Source: Alphaproteobacteria bacterium (GTDB lineage Bacteria; Pseudomonadota; Alphaproteobacteria; UBA2966). Taken from it: a stretch of 34,668 nt of DNA. This document shows, piece by piece, positions 2,199 to 6,846 of the stretch. Location of the stretch: the NCBI GenBank assembly GCA_018650465.1, contig JABIFY010000032.1, forward strand, positions 1 to 34,668, given 5' to 3'. The stretch's first letter is position 1. Every line of letters begins with the position of its first letter. The position numbers and the translations under genes were made by a program. The notes under the pieces were generated by a model. The model saw only the letters and a list, made by a program, of their open reading frames with translations. It was not told the origin of the DNA and did not search any database.

Positions 2199-4673
2199 TC
2201 AAAAACGCCGCAATAACCGATCAAGATAATCTCTTTCCAGGCGCGGGCGGGTCAGGTCGCTGGCCCGGTTATGCAATTCCTTCAGAACCTTGCGGGCGCG
2301 TTGCATCGCGGTCTCGTCGGGGATTTTCACATCTCCATCCGGGTTTTTACCCTGGGCATCCAATGGCCTGCCAAGGGGGTCGGTATTGCGACCGGGCATG
2401 GGCATGCGGCCCTGGCCCATCAGGCCTTGTTGACCACGTTCACCCGCCATGGCCTTGGCCAGGGCTTCCGCACCTGACCGCATTTGCTGCAAGGCGGTAC
2501 TTTGTTGTGGCGCCGCATTTCCGGGCTCACCACTTTGCAACGACTTGCCAGCACCGCGCATGGCGCGTTCGGCCTTGCCCAGTTGTTTGGGAATTTTGCC
2601 GCGAGCTTCGCCCAGTTGTCGCATAATTTCACCCAGCCGACGCCGCAAGGCTTCCTGTTCAGCGGCACTTGCTTTGGACTGTTTGTCGCCTGGTTTGGCC
2701 TTGCCGCTTTGCTGGCGGCGCAGGCTTTGGTCCAGCAATTCCTGCTGACGACGCATCAATTTGCCCATTTCGCCCAAAGCCTTTTGACCGGCTTGCATTT
2801 GTTTGGACATTTGCCGCTGACGGCTACCAGCCCGCAGACTCTCCAGCATATTACGTAACTGCGACAGCAATTCCTTCGCCGCATCTCGGGCGCCCAGCCG
2901 AGACAATTCCCGGGCCCGGTCCAGCATATTTTGCAGATCCTGGCGGTCTACCGAGCGGGCATTGGGGTCGATGGGCAGATTGGCCTGATTTTGTTGTTGT
3001 GGATTTTTGGCCATTTCTTCCATCATAGCCTGCAGAAAACGGTCCATGGCCTGCTTCAATTCCTGCGCCAGACGGTCAATTTCCGCCTGTGAGGCATTCC
3101 GCGACAGGGCATCCATCAGATTCTGCTCGGCCTTTCGCAAGGCCCGTTCAGCCAGGGACAGGACACCGTCCTCGATACGCAGGGCCGTATCCCACAAGAT
3201 GTCGATTACTTCATCCACGGCCCTGTCGCTGCTGTCCAGTTCCAGCCGCCGGATGGCGGACCGCAAGCTCAGGGTCACCACGCTGTCATCGTCATATTCT
3301 TCGGGAAAAGCCGAGATAACACGCAAGGTCCGGGCGATGGCTTTGCCTTCATCACTCATCGATGCCAGACGTTTGCGCTGCTCAATGATGGCCCGTGCTA
3401 CAGGATGTTCAAAGGGGCGCTCAGGCAGGATGACTTTTTGGCTCTGGCTTCGGCCCGTCTGGCCGGCAGCATCTTCTGCTTCCAGGACCATCGTCACCGG
3501 CAAACCAGCCCACTTGTGGGGTGTAAAATCCTTGAACATTTTGTGCCGGAAGACATCCGGTGCCTGACCGGGCAGAGGGACTTCAATGAATTGCGGTGGT
3601 TGATCCCCGTGTTTCAGCGACAGGCGCAGGCTCGCCAGGCCATAATCATCTGTCGCCAGAAGTGGTATTTTCAAACCCAGACGAGCTGAAACTGTCGGTG
3701 CCTGTTCGATGGCGGCCTGCGGCGCTTCGTCGGGGATGATGGCGAAGTCCCATTTCGCCAGTTCCCTGGTCTCTTGCATCAGATGGGCGCTCTGGGGCCG
3801 GTCCAGCTTGCTGTTTAATTCATGATTTTGGGCATCAATGGCCGTTGCCGTTATTGTCGTGGTTGCAGGTGCATGGCCCATGATCAGGACCGGCAGTCCC
3901 GCACCACCATGCAGGCGAACAAACAATTCGCTGTTGACGGGTACACTATAAACGGCGATTTCATTTTCGCTGATTGCCTGTTGGACCAGGCTTTTGCCAT
4001 GGGCCGTCAACAGAACCGGTGCTTTGCCAGTATAGGCCGGTGGTGTCACCCAGGCTTCGAACCGGGCGGCGGGCACAGGCGTCGAAATATCCGGTGCAAA
4101 GGCTTGCGCCAAACGATTTGCGCCCTCGGACCCGGCCGCCATCAAGCCGACAAAAAGTAACAACCCCACAGCGTAACGAATAGCGCGTGGATCCCGTTCG
4201 GCCAGTCCCGGTCGCGGCCAGCGCGGGCGCAATCGTGCGAGAGCTTCAAGAGCACGGTTTTTTGACAACAGCCACAACTGCCATGTTGCCGGATTTGATT
4301 TATCTGGATTGGCAAGCTGATCTTCCAGGGCCTGGATCGGTCGATGCACAGTGCCGCTATCTGTTTCCAGCCGTCTGCGACCCTGTTCACGGTTGGGCAG
4401 CCGGACCAGCGGCAAACGAAGCAGCAACAAAGTCGCGATGCCAGCTGCAAAAAGTATCAGACCGGCCAGGTGAAAATAACCAGGCACAGATTGCCAAAGA
4501 CCGGCCAGAGATAAAGCCACAAATAGCGCTGCTAAAACGACAAGCGGCCACAGCGCCCGCCAGAGGGATTCCCAATACAGGGCCAGGCGCGCCAACAGAA
4601 TCCGAAACCCGATGCGGGTATCGGACGTTGGTGGAATATGATCGTTACTTGCCATCACACCGGGCCGAAGCAT
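2199..4673 (-). CDS. DUF4175 / TIGR02302 family membrane protein
   Basis: An 824-residue protein of the alphaproteobacterial TIGR02302 (DUF4175) family, function unknown. Two N-terminal membrane segments (about 41-59 and 66-88) and a third at about 164-182 precede a long soluble region, probably outside the cytoplasm. The last third (about 540-770) is rich in Gln, Met, Arg and Ala and is probably coiled coil or low complexity, which is typical of the family. ATG at 4673 was kept because an AAAAGG stretch precedes it directly; ATG at 4655 (MASNDH...) is an alternative. In relatives the gene usually follows lysA. Here about 0.9 kb containing a RAYT gene and its hairpins separates the two. The role may be in the envelope, but nothing in the sequence proves it. 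Confidence 0.85.
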   Translation of the reverse strand: MLRPGVMASNDHIPPTSDTRIGFRILLARLALYWESLWRALWPLVVLAALFVALSLAGLWQSVPGYFHLAGLILFAAGIATLLLLRLPLVRLPNREQGRRRLETDSGTVHRPIQALEDQLANPDKSNPATWQLWLLSKNRALEALARLRPRWPRPGLAERDPRAIRYAVGLLLFVGLMAAGSEGANRLAQAFAPDISTPVPAARFEAWVTPPAYTGKAPVLLTAHGKSLVQQAISENEIAVYSVPVNSELFVRLHGGAGLPVLIMGHAPATTTITATAIDAQNHELNSKLDRPQSAHLMQETRELAKWDFAIIPDEAPQAAIEQAPTVSARLGLKIPLLATDDYGLASLRLSLKHGDQPPQFIEVPLPGQAPDVFRHKMFKDFTPHKWAGLPVTMVLEAEDAAGQTGRSQSQKVILPERPFEHPVARAIIEQRKRLASMSDEGKAIARTLRVISAFPEEYDDDSVVTLSLRSAIRRLELDSSDRAVDEVIDILWDTALRIEDGVLSLAERALRKAEQNLMDALSRNASQAEIDRLAQELKQAMDRFLQAMMEEMAKNPQQQNQANLPIDPNARSVDRQDLQNMLDRARELSRLGARDAAKELLSQLRNMLESLRAGSRQRQMSKQMQAGQKALGEMGKLMRRQQELLDQSLRRQQSGKAKPGDKQSKASAAEQEALRRRLGEIMRQLGEARGKIPKQLGKAERAMRGAGKSLQSGEPGNAAPQQSTALQQMRSGAEALAKAMAGERGQQGLMGQGRMPMPGRNTDPLGRPLDAQGKNPDGDVKIPDETAMQRARKVLKELHNRASDLTRPRLERDYLDRLLRRF

Positions 4674-4760
4674 CCTTTTAGAAGGAGAAATATCGTTAAC
4701 ACCCGATTTTCCCTCAGGACACCCCTCATGTCCAATCAGAAAACGGTGACTCCTGACTCA

Positions 4761-4814
4761 TAATTGGTGCCAGGCACTAATTAACAAACATTAATCAGTG
4801 CCTGGCACCAATTA
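4761..4814. repeat. REP hairpin upstream of the RAYT gene
   Basis: A perfect 17-bp inverted repeat, TAATTGGTGCCAGGCAC (4761-4777) and its complement (4798-4814), surrounds a 20-base AT-rich loop. Each arm contains a small palindrome of its own, GTGCCaGGCAC. Part of the element (4767-4816) recurs in the same orientation after the RAYT gene at 5529-5578. Such hairpins next to a Y1-type transposase gene are the hallmark of REP/RAYT systems. Confidence 0.85.
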
Positions 4815-4862
4815 ATTTACGTTCAGCGGAAAAAATAGCTCTGGCCCCTGCATATCACCGGT

Positions 4863-5525
4863 ATGCCAAGACGCCCCAGAATAGTTGTGCCCGGCGCACC
4901 TCATCACGTGACCCAACGTGGCAACCGACGTCAGCAGACGTTTTTCACCCATTGGGATTATCGTTATTATCTCGAGTTGCTCGAAAGGTCCTGCGAAAAA
5001 TACGAAGTCGCGCTTTGGGCTTATTGCCTCATGCCGAACCACGTTCACTTGATCCTGGTGCCCGGAGAAGCAGCGAATCTGAGTCAGGTTGTTGGCGAAA
5101 CTCACAAAAAATTCGCTGCCAGAATTAATCAACGACATGATTGGAAAGGCCACCTCTGGCAAAGCAGGTATGCTTCTTTTGCCATGGATGAGACCTGGCT
5201 GTTGATGGCTGCCAGATATATCGAGCTTAATCCTGTTCGTGCAAAAATAGTGAACAAACCAGAGGATTATCGATGGTCCAGTGCCGGTGCCCACAGCAAT
5301 GGATCATTGGATCGCCTGAGTTCGTCTGACCCACTGACTGAATTGGTTCCCGACTGGGCCGCTTTTTTGCTTGATGAGCCTGTGGAGGCTGTTCATCCGA
5401 ATATGAACAAACACGAAGCGGCTGGATACCCTGTTGGCAGCGACGTGTTTATCCAAAAGGCTGAGCTCTTGACCGGGCGCTCCCTTAAAGCCCTCCGTCG
5501 GGGTCGACCTCCCAAAAAGCGTTAA
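4863..5525 (+). CDS. REP-associated tyrosine transposase (RAYT, Y1/HUH)
   Basis: A 220-residue single-domain protein of the transposase-17 (Y1_Tnp, IS200-like) superfamily. The metal-binding HUH motif is H60-V-H62 in MPNHVHLIL. The likely catalytic tyrosine is Y119 in AARYIELNPVRA. Both are intact, so the enzyme may be active. RAYTs are domesticated relatives of IS200/IS605 transposases that nick at REP hairpins as single strands. The gene lies between two direct copies of a GTGCCAGGCAC hairpin and points against its minus-strand neighbours lysA and DUF4175. There are no classical IS ends or accessory genes. Specificity for the flanking hairpins is an inference from their position. Confidence 0.9.
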   Translation: MPRRPRIVVPGAPHHVTQRGNRRQQTFFTHWDYRYYLELLERSCEKYEVALWAYCLMPNHVHLILVPGEAANLSQVVGETHKKFAARINQRHDWKGHLWQSRYASFAMDETWLLMAARYIELNPVRAKIVNKPEDYRWSSAGAHSNGSLDRLSSSDPLTELVPDWAAFLLDEPVEAVHPNMNKHEAAGYPVGSDVFIQKAELLTGRSLKALRRGRPPKKR

Positions 5526-5528
5526 ATA

Positions 5529-5578
5529 GTGACAGGCACTAATTAACAAAGATTAATAGGTGCATGGCACCAATTAAT
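5529..5578. repeat. REP hairpin downstream of the RAYT gene
   Basis: A direct, same-orientation copy of 4767-4816, with 5 mismatches in 50 positions by my alignment. Two of the changes (C to A at 5532 and 5564) fall in the hairpin arms and weaken the stem, so this copy is more decayed than the upstream one. It begins 3 bp after the RAYT stop and ends 11 bp before the lysA stop codon, and may influence the end of lysA transcripts. Confidence 0.8.
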
Positions 5579-5589
5579 AAGTCGAGGGT

Positions 5590-6846
5590 TTACTTCAACC
5601 AGTCGGGGATGGTGTCGTTGGCGATCAGGTCTTCGATGGTTTTGCGTTTGCGGATGACGCTGAAATCGCTGCCGTGAACCAGCACTTCTGCGGCCATGGG
5701 GCGGGCATTGTAGGTGGACGCCATCACCGCGCCATAGGCTCCAGCGGAGCGGATGGCGATCAGCTCGCCTTCGCCCAGTTCGGGTAGTTCACAATTGCGG
5801 GCGAAGGTGTCGCCGCTCTCGCAGATCGGGCCAACCACATCGGCTTCGCTGTGTGGGCCATTGGTCAGGCGCACGGGCACCAGATCATGTTTGGCGTCAT
5901 ACAGGGTCGGGCGAATAAGGTCGTTCATGGCGGCATCAATTATGACAAAACGACGGTCTTCGCTTTGCTTGTTGTAAACCAGCGACGAAACCACAATGCC
6001 TGCATTGCCCACTATCACGCGGCCAGGCTCAAAGCCCAGTTTCTTGCCGGTCTTGCCAAAGACGTTTTTGACGACCGCACCATATTCAGCCGGGCTGGGT
6101 GGTGTTTCCTCGCCATAGGGAATACCGAGGCCGCCGCCCAGATCGATGGTGCTGATGTCATGACCATCTTGTTCCAGCAGTTCAACCATTTCCAGCAGAC
6201 GGTGATAGGCCAGCTCGTAGGGTTTCAGCGTGGTGATTTGTGATCCGATATGAACGGCTGCTGCCTTGACCTGGATGCCGGGAAGTTCCGCCGCGCGGGC
6301 ATAGAGTTCCCGGGCCCGGGGCCAGGCGACACCAAATTTGTTTTCGGCCTTGCCAGTGGTGATCTTGGCGTGGGTTTTGGCGTCCACATCCGGGTTCAGG
6401 CGAATACCGATTTGCGCCGTGGCACCCATGCCATTGGCCACTTCGGACAGGGCCTCCAGTTCGGCTTCTGATTCAACATTGAACTGGCCAATCCCGGCTT
6501 CAAGGCCCGCGCGCATTTCTTCGCGCTTTTTGCCAACACCGGAAAAAACGATTTCATCCGCCGCCACACCAGCGGCTTGCGCAATGGCCAACTCGCCCGC
6601 CGAGACAATATCCGCCCCGGCTCCTTGTTGCGACAACAAACGCACAAGGGCCACATTGCTGTTGGCTTTGACGGCGTAATAGATTTTTGCATCCAGACCC
6701 GTCAAGGCATCGGCAAAGGCCTTGTAATGCCGCACCAGAGTGGCACTGGAATAACAGTAAAAAGGCGTGCCAACAGCGTTGGCAATTTCCTGGATGGCGA
6801 TGTCTTCCGCGTAAAGCTCGCCGTCCCGATAATCGAAATGGTCCAT
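5590..6846 (-). CDS. lysA: Diaminopimelate decarboxylase
   Basis: A 418-residue PLP enzyme that decarboxylates meso-diaminopimelate to L-lysine, the last step of lysine synthesis. It has the fold-type III (alanine racemase-like) barrel with the PLP lysine K60 in IYYAVKAN. A HIGSQI motif, a glycine-rich phosphate loop (DLGGGLGIPYG) and the partner-subunit cysteine motif CESGDTFA are present, followed by the typical AGAYGAVMAS segment. It lies 51 bp after lptM in an argH-lptM-lysA operon. Length is normal. Confidence 0.97.
   Translation of the reverse strand: MDHFDYRDGELYAEDIAIQEIANAVGTPFYCYSSATLVRHYKAFADALTGLDAKIYYAVKANSNVALVRLLSQQGAGADIVSAGELAIAQAAGVAADEIVFSGVGKKREEMRAGLEAGIGQFNVESEAELEALSEVANGMGATAQIGIRLNPDVDAKTHAKITTGKAENKFGVAWPRARELYARAAELPGIQVKAAAVHIGSQITTLKPYELAYHRLLEMVELLEQDGHDISTIDLGGGLGIPYGEETPPSPAEYGAVVKNVFGKTGKKLGFEPGRVIVGNAGIVVSSLVYNKQSEDRRFVIIDAAMNDLIRPTLYDAKHDLVPVRLTNGPHSEADVVGPICESGDTFARNCELPELGEGELIAIRSAGAYGAVMASTYNARPMAAEVLVHGSDFSVIRKRKTIEDLIANDTIPDWLK

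Follow-up and report, generated by a model that had tools for sequence, protein, structure and literature searches.

The closest described systems are the TIR-associated tyrosine transposases (TIRYTs). In the passages of Di Nocera et al. (2013; PMC3733652) devoted to them, RAYT-like genes are flanked by TIRs, of which some share the motif GGGGWSAS and some are self-complementary or double palindromic. The TnpAY1 survey of Quentin et al. (2018; PMC6006769) lists in its signature table a subclass 2.1 characterised by NHVH, W[EQ], YIELNP and long proteins; according to the relevant sections of that paper this subclass equals RAYT group 1, in the grouping of Bertels (2017) as given there, is probably the counterpart of the TIRYT that Di Nocera et al. 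describe, and constitutes the second largest TnpAY1 group, found in 14.9% of the surveyed strains. The open papers searched yielded no test of how subclass 2.1 enzymes cut or move.

The window, by which we mean the whole stretch of 34,668 nucleotides of alphaproteobacterial DNA analysed here, contains a cassette (Table 1) that is, by its sequence signatures and its fold, a TIR-associated tyrosine transposase element (TIRYT, subclass 2.1). The HUH motif, N59-H60-V61-H62, conforms to the subclass 2.1 pattern NHVH or NH[YF]H, and Y119-IELNP together with W99-Q100 conforms to YIELNP or Y[IV]HLNP accompanied by W[EQ]. The gene is flanked by TIRs rather than by GTAG REPs, with arms of 55 nt, and the ends of most relatives are clear TIRs. 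The GGGGWSAS motif is absent, the ends of the cassette reading GGTGCCAG and those of many relatives GGGGACAC or GGGGACAG, but the class does not require this motif, because only some of the published TIRs share it. The label RAYT, given to the cassette by the first-pass annotation, thus holds in so far as the gene is of RAYT type; the element itself is a TIRYT of subclass 2.1 and not a GTAG-REP RAYT.

Table 1. Features of the cassette and of its flanks (positions in the window)
Feature	Position	Strand	Basis or remark
Whole cassette	4758..5580	+	Ends predicted from the outer edge of other family members' partial copies
5' palindromic unit, two palindromes	4761..4816	+	GTGCC cores 4767-4777 and 4798-4808
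Promoter-like leader GCGGAAAAAATAGCTCTGGCCCCTGCATATC	4826..4856	+	3 mismatches to the motif pattern used
Y1/HUH tyrosine transposase gene, TIRYT type	4863..5525	+	663 bp, 220 aa; TnpAY1 subclass 2.1 signatures
HUH motif codons (H60-V61-H62)	5040..5048	+	Translation and alignment
Catalytic tyrosine codon (Y119 in YIELNP)	5217..5219	+	Translation and alignment
3' palindromic unit, diverged	5523..5578	+	Cores 5529-5539 and 5560-5570; starts inside the transposase stop codon
lysA, flank	5590..6846	-	TIGR01048, 472 bits
DUF4175 / TIGR02302 gene, flank	2199..4673	-	Pfam and NCBIfam

The protein scores 64 bits against Pfam Y1_Tnp (cut-off 23) and 81.8 against NCBIfam REP_Tyr_transpos (cut-off 80), and an alignment of 59 sequences (the window, the loci of 55 of the 80 best relatives and 3 further loci) shows no variation at H60, H62 or Y119, which bears out the earlier description of a Y1 transposase gene with intact HUH and tyrosine residues. 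Assignment to the IS200/IS605 TnpA equivalog, with its Y...Q motif, was considered and rejected, the score against transpos_IS200 (NF033573) being 29.4 under a cut-off of 55 and the window having YIELNP. The AlphaFold model (mean pLDDT 87.3) finds its best structural match in 4er8 (Z 16.6, 157 residues aligned, rmsd 2.4), followed by entries including IS608 at a Z of about 10. Some 80 largely helical residues form the C-terminal part of the model, the median for subclass 2.1 being 238 aa with an HTH-like C-terminal domain; a search with the C-terminal part of four members gave no Pfam match up to E 1. The gene is the single RAYT match in its own genome, and its GC3 is 0.51 against 0.60-0.65 in three neighbours. 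In a tree of 101 rows (6 of 110 proteins outside 180-330 aa were dropped and 3 more were removed from the remaining 104) the window protein occupies a long end branch (1.15) with no well-supported close kin, its identity to any other row being at most 54%.

The 80 best relatives, whose best segments are 47-54% identical, are spread over many phyla. Their ends are mostly of the type AATTCCGGGGACACCATACTTAATT with its inverse complement at the other side; at some loci between L140 and L152 the ends were judged from tables only. When the 11-mer was sought with up to 2 mismatches within 160-200 nt of the genes of the 80 relatives, the GTGCC palindrome occurred on both sides only at locus L186. Other palindromes are found in kin, namely GGTGACTGTCACC at L081, from the same family, and ACGACTGTCGT at L180, from the Rhodospirillaceae. 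At L152 a perfect hairpin with 44-nt arms of TIR sequence and no gene between them stands at most 140 nt upstream of the transposase, and resembles a ready-made miniature element beside its transposase.

Each end of the cassette is a 56-nt unit composed of two 11-nt palindromes of the type GTGCCAGGCAC, 31 bp apart, and the two units are direct repeats, 88% identical. Inverted arms can also be read across the cassette (4761-4815 / 5522-5576), with a complementarity of 76%. The 5' unit, whose 24-nt arms are 96% complementary (23 of 24 pairs, 18 of them consecutive) around a 6-nt spacer, folds into one long hairpin (-23 kcal/mol, z -9.9), and the 3' unit into a pair of separate, smaller ones (-13.3 kcal/mol, z -6.1); in neither case was any of 200 shuffles as good. 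The first-pass annotation had described two hairpin copies in the same orientation, the upstream with a perfect 17-bp stem and the downstream decayed. The direct repetition and the divergence of the 3' unit are retained in our description, in which each unit has two palindromes rather than one and the upstream stem has the pairing just given. The directionality of cleavage that a perfect and a decayed hairpin had been thought to show perhaps finds no support: covariation in the palindromes, which we looked for as support for a single-stranded hairpin, is not above that of shuffles, so that the palindrome reveals neither strand use nor whether the site is a symmetric duplex or a single-stranded hairpin. 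The terminal repeats have the consensus TTAAnnRGTGCCWGRCACYnnTTAA, with an invariant part TAA...GTG......AC...TTA inside the mostly conserved TTAA..GTG.....CAC..TTAA, and the predicted ends of the cassette fall about 2-4 nt outside the TTAA arm. No Rfam family reached its gathering threshold in the window.

The promoter-like leader resembles a motif, GCTCTRRNCCTTKCATAGG, often placed after GGAAAA, which precedes the RAYT genes of L255 and L256. The same motif precedes apparent other genes in two genomes of the same bacterial family, G003 and G005 (L237, L238, L243, L244, L249 and L250), so the leader looks to be of host type and is perhaps a promoter class of the host's bacterial family. Its use as a mark of the element's lineage was accordingly discarded, the motif standing before genes other than the transposase and the leader-bearing proteins requiring five changes on the tree.

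Beyond the flanks formed by lysA and the DUF4175 gene lies argH, and the transposase gene is opposite in strand to all three. The claim that the cassette was inserted into a normally contiguous series is sustained by its relatives. A lysA match was obtained in 42 other genomes and 29 loci were examined: argH is on the same strand as lysA at all 29, DUF4175 is close to lysA and on the same strand at 26, and a RAYT is found at none (tblastn, E 1e-4). The estimated gaps between lysA and DUF4175 are mostly below 120 nt in relatives as against about 920 here, some of the estimates being off because the DUF4175 match is partial. In a genome of the same genus, G001, where lysA is 91% identical, DUF4175 follows lysA after about 111 nt without the cassette, and no RAYT match was detected at E 1e-10. 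This comparison, proposed by the first-pass annotation, shows the cassette to sit in a junction from which it is missing in the relatives examined, and we infer that it was inserted after the split from the same-genus genome. In the genomes examined no relative has the cassette at the orthologous position, and the hairpin recurs at other loci. Uncoupling of the DUF4175 gene from lysA transcription, which the first-pass annotation considered probable, is a possible consequence. Given that the genome holds only one RAYT copy, the case for mobility of the gene rests on its absence from relatives; and because the G001 junction has diverged on both sides, the insertion does not disclose the cleavage site, the target sequence or any target duplication.

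The genome-wide count of the hairpin unit, also proposed earlier, gave ten loci. A covariance model of 16 palindromes recovered palindromic units at 13 places in the cassette's own genome, which form these ten loci including the window, the nine others being gene-less satellites. At E<=1, and with at most 150 candidates scored per genome (in G001, 150 of 1101 first-look candidates), the model had no match in G001, G002, G004 and G006; G003 yielded two weak matches, both at a single place immediately upstream of a RAYT of its own, and G005 a single one at E 0.95. As the model was built from the own loci, it adds only that no further loci were found and that other genomes are without them. In the own genome a pattern of core plus TTAA arm with up to 3 mismatches has 67 matches as against 22 for a reversed control, and with up to 2 mismatches 33 (on both strands, a few of them non-family) as against 3 in G001.

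For two satellites an empty site can be seen in colinear DNA of G001, of about 50 bp for that at C88:43.8k and of about 190 nt for that at C88:59.3k. The G001 counterpart of the satellite at C88:48.6k is too diverged to serve as an empty site, and that of the C163 satellite is unusable, its flanks lying on two G001 contigs. Beside the satellite at C88:48.6k (L211:5378-5631) the own genome is longer than G001 by about 230 nt.

The bare 11-mer occurs exactly at 21 places in the own genome, of which 6 fall in the cassette family, 10 in a different repeat family and the remaining 5 outside both; it is therefore not diagnostic, and its count was rejected as a census in which two repeat families are mixed. 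The second family is represented in the window itself (1985-2195, core 2141-2167), where GTGCCTGGCAC stands next to CTTCGCGAAG as part of a repeat of roughly 200 bp immediately beyond the DUF4175 gene. When up to 2 mismatches are allowed, it has 14 places in the own genome and none in the same-genus genome. Another repeat, GTCATACTGGYGAAARCCAGTATCCA, lies beside (L037:2009-2034) or within about 30 nt of (L035:2048-2073) the satellites at two of the nine loci, and we take it to resemble the CGTC-tagged REP type. A CGTC-tagged REP class is named in a passage of PMC3733652. Two further repeats of about 100 bp (L211:12516-12621 and L211:3052-3144) have at least 30 and at least 8 matches in G001, where 40 of 176 candidates were scored.

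The ends of the relatives exhibit a further regularity, namely arrays such as GGTAATTCCGGA-GGTAATTCCGGGGACAG, in which part of the end is repeated in tandem. With a run of at least 7 nt and a period of 5-70 as criteria, tandem duplications were found in 56 of the 159 end segments, each at most 150 nt long, and in 54 of 409 control segments taken at least 500 nt away and unmatched in composition. For the position of the duplications one per end was taken at 109 loci with 210 ends, after the removal of 8 from 218 ends for a length below 100 nt. An anchor resembling GGGGACA is present at 180 of the 210 ends, in some by chance since one mismatch in 7 was allowed, and 56 ends from 46 loci have an anchored duplication. 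The outer edge of the duplication lies at -11..-6 from the anchor in 44 of these 56, both at left (24/32) and at right ends (20/24), and the inner edge ranges from -12 to +30; the spread (MAD) is 1.0 for the outer and 3.5 for the inner edge, with a reflection test of p 5e-5 (0 of 20000) that treats the 210 ends as independent, the ends being related by descent. The overlap between partial copies is at most 3 nt in 53 of the 56.

The satellites of the own genome show the same feature, 5 of the 9 having a duplication as against none of 54 equal control windows, with an outer edge that, judged by eye, falls some 2-4 nt beyond the TTAA arm; neither end of the cassette itself has a partial copy (0/2). 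Partial copies are also present on finished plasmids of Skermanella rosea, S. mucosa and Acetoanaerobium noterae (3 of 6 records examined, from 25 matching), in which they accompany more distant transposases, and so are not solely an artefact of draft assembly. A duplication in Rhodospirillum rubrum adjoins the stop codon and not the outer edge. In Skermanella the two elements are orthologous, with 97% identity in the upstream flank and 92.5% in the gene region, and their left-end arrays differ in both the number and the length of copies, so that arrays change in place. Partial copies with a fixed outer edge were not found in the open papers searched, and a search for five literal end sequences returned no paper whose title or abstract concerns such elements. 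The tandem arrays described in passages of Bertels and Rainey (PMC3116915) are of whole REPINs with their flanks, unlike the partial copies.

Taken jointly, these observations are probably best explained by a TIRtron with palindromic TIRs that was inserted, whose ends are recognised by its own transposase and nicked at the outer edge. The transposase would recognise the palindromic end, either as a single-stranded hairpin or as a symmetric duplex, and would nick the outer edge a few nt beyond the TTAA/AATT arm, remaining on the 5' end via Y119 and so moving the cassette or a gene-less unit. Less certainly, synthesis from the free 3'-OH might add a few to about 40 nt, with the displaced 5' end kept bound by the enzyme, and after religation the element's first bases might remain as a tandem partial copy. 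Such nicking, extension and religation would explain why the ends stutter with a constant outer edge and an inner edge that varies. Since the two inverted ends show one and the same pattern, the cuts would be made on opposite strands; those of the IS200/IS605 family are on the same strand at both ends. Cleavage by HUH enzymes, as outlined in PMC8266576, yields a 3'-OH and a 5'-phosphotyrosine, and in replication proteins and relaxases this 3'-OH can serve as a primer for synthesis.

The partial copies may be scars of a TIRYT transposase, made when a nick on the 5' side at the outer edge of each repeat is followed by a short stretch of strand-displacement synthesis and the tyrosine then rejoins the strand, a proposal that we advance tentatively and rate at slightly under an even chance. 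With the same reserve, the fixed outer start of the scar could be placed some 7-10 nt beyond GGGGACA, or in the own genome a few nt beyond TTAA. Were this true, cleavage sites could be mapped in many phyla from the sequence alone, and elements would possess a route by which to lengthen and diversify their own ends.

The main rival to transposase nicking is replication slippage at hairpins, which is conceivable but somewhat doubtful as the source of the partial copies. The ends are palindromic or hairpin-prone, and polymerase slippage at hairpins is documented (PMC4134008); yet slippage would not readily account for an outer edge that is fixed and an inner edge that varies at both ends (24/32 left, 20/24 right), for an overlap of at most 3 nt in 53/56, or for partial copies where the end is not self-palindromic. 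A different question is whether the element moves at all. That the gene encodes a non-mobile, domesticated single-strand nuclease kept by the host, for which the hairpins are regulatory or housekeeping sites, would agree with the single intact copy, with the host-type promoter-like motif before the gene and with the description of class 2 genes as low-copy in parts of PMC6006769; this reading is unlikely, the gene being found neither in the same-genus genome nor at any of the 29 orthologous junctions examined, and the satellites likewise being unmatched in the same-genus genome by the covariance search. Loss of an ancestral cassette from the relatives, instead of insertion, is more improbable still, in spite of the depth of the protein in the tree (end branch 1.15), by reason of which the cassette could be old in the lineage: DUF4175 stands by lysA at 26 of the 29 junctions, most with short gaps and no RAYT match, and the covariance search detected no satellites in G001 either.

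The hairpins could alternatively be of a more familiar kind. A canonical RAYT/REP system (REPtron), in which GTAG-tagged REPs are mobilised by a RAYT of group 2 or 3, would be suggested by the REP_Tyr_transpos score just over the cut-off, by hairpins on both sides and by dispersed copies, but is very unlikely here. By eye, no GT[AG]G stands at the foot of the hairpin in either unit or in the nine satellites (the C69 unit has GTGG inside the stem), the absence of this tag having led us to reject a plain GTAG-REP RAYT; moreover, the family comprises ten loci and not hundreds, YIELNP and NHVH are signatures of subclass 2.1, and the ends of most relatives are TIRs. Ordinary transcription terminators, for which speak one terminator-like match on the minus strand (4816-4790) and a look-alike at C88:33.6k that has a G001 counterpart, are as remote a prospect as ancestral loss: three terminator-like sites against a shuffle mean of 1.9 is the level of chance, on which ground they were set aside, the family was not found in G001, and empty sites show two of the satellites to be insertions.

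The reading of the cassette as a TIRtron with palindromic, self-recognised ends can finally be set against the known systems. The locus offers a simple testable system with one transposase, ten sites and one relative without them. With TnpAREP and its REP hairpin (PDB 4er8) the cassette shares the fold and the HUH/Y1 residues; it differs in sequence, being 20% identical where the two align, in its lack of a GTAG tag and in about 80 extra C-terminal residues. With IS200/IS605 elements (IS608, ISDra2) it has in common the Y1 core fold and, in principle, hairpin ends; it is unlike them in the NP, not Q, after the tyrosine, in the transpos_IS200 score (29.4 vs 55) and in the want of a second genomic copy. 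The likeness to subclass 2.1, as portrayed in sections of PMC6006769, extends to NHVH, WQ, YIELNP, the long C-terminal tail, the low copy number and the patchy, wide spread, but the searches reported in those sections, automatic or manual, found no REP-like sequences near the genes, whereas the ends of the cassette are strong hairpins with dispersed copies. From the TIRtrons/TIRYTs as they appear in passages of PMC3733652 the cassette departs in its ends, GGTGCCAG as against the GGGGWSAS of some published TIRs, and in the fixed-outer-edge tandem partial copies of its kind, which those passages do not contain. It agrees with them in a RAYT-like gene without GTAG REPs and with TIR flanks, and in palindromic TIRs that form small repeat families, single, dimeric or grouped. 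Self-complementary TIRs have been published previously, and the cassette adds one more TIRtron.
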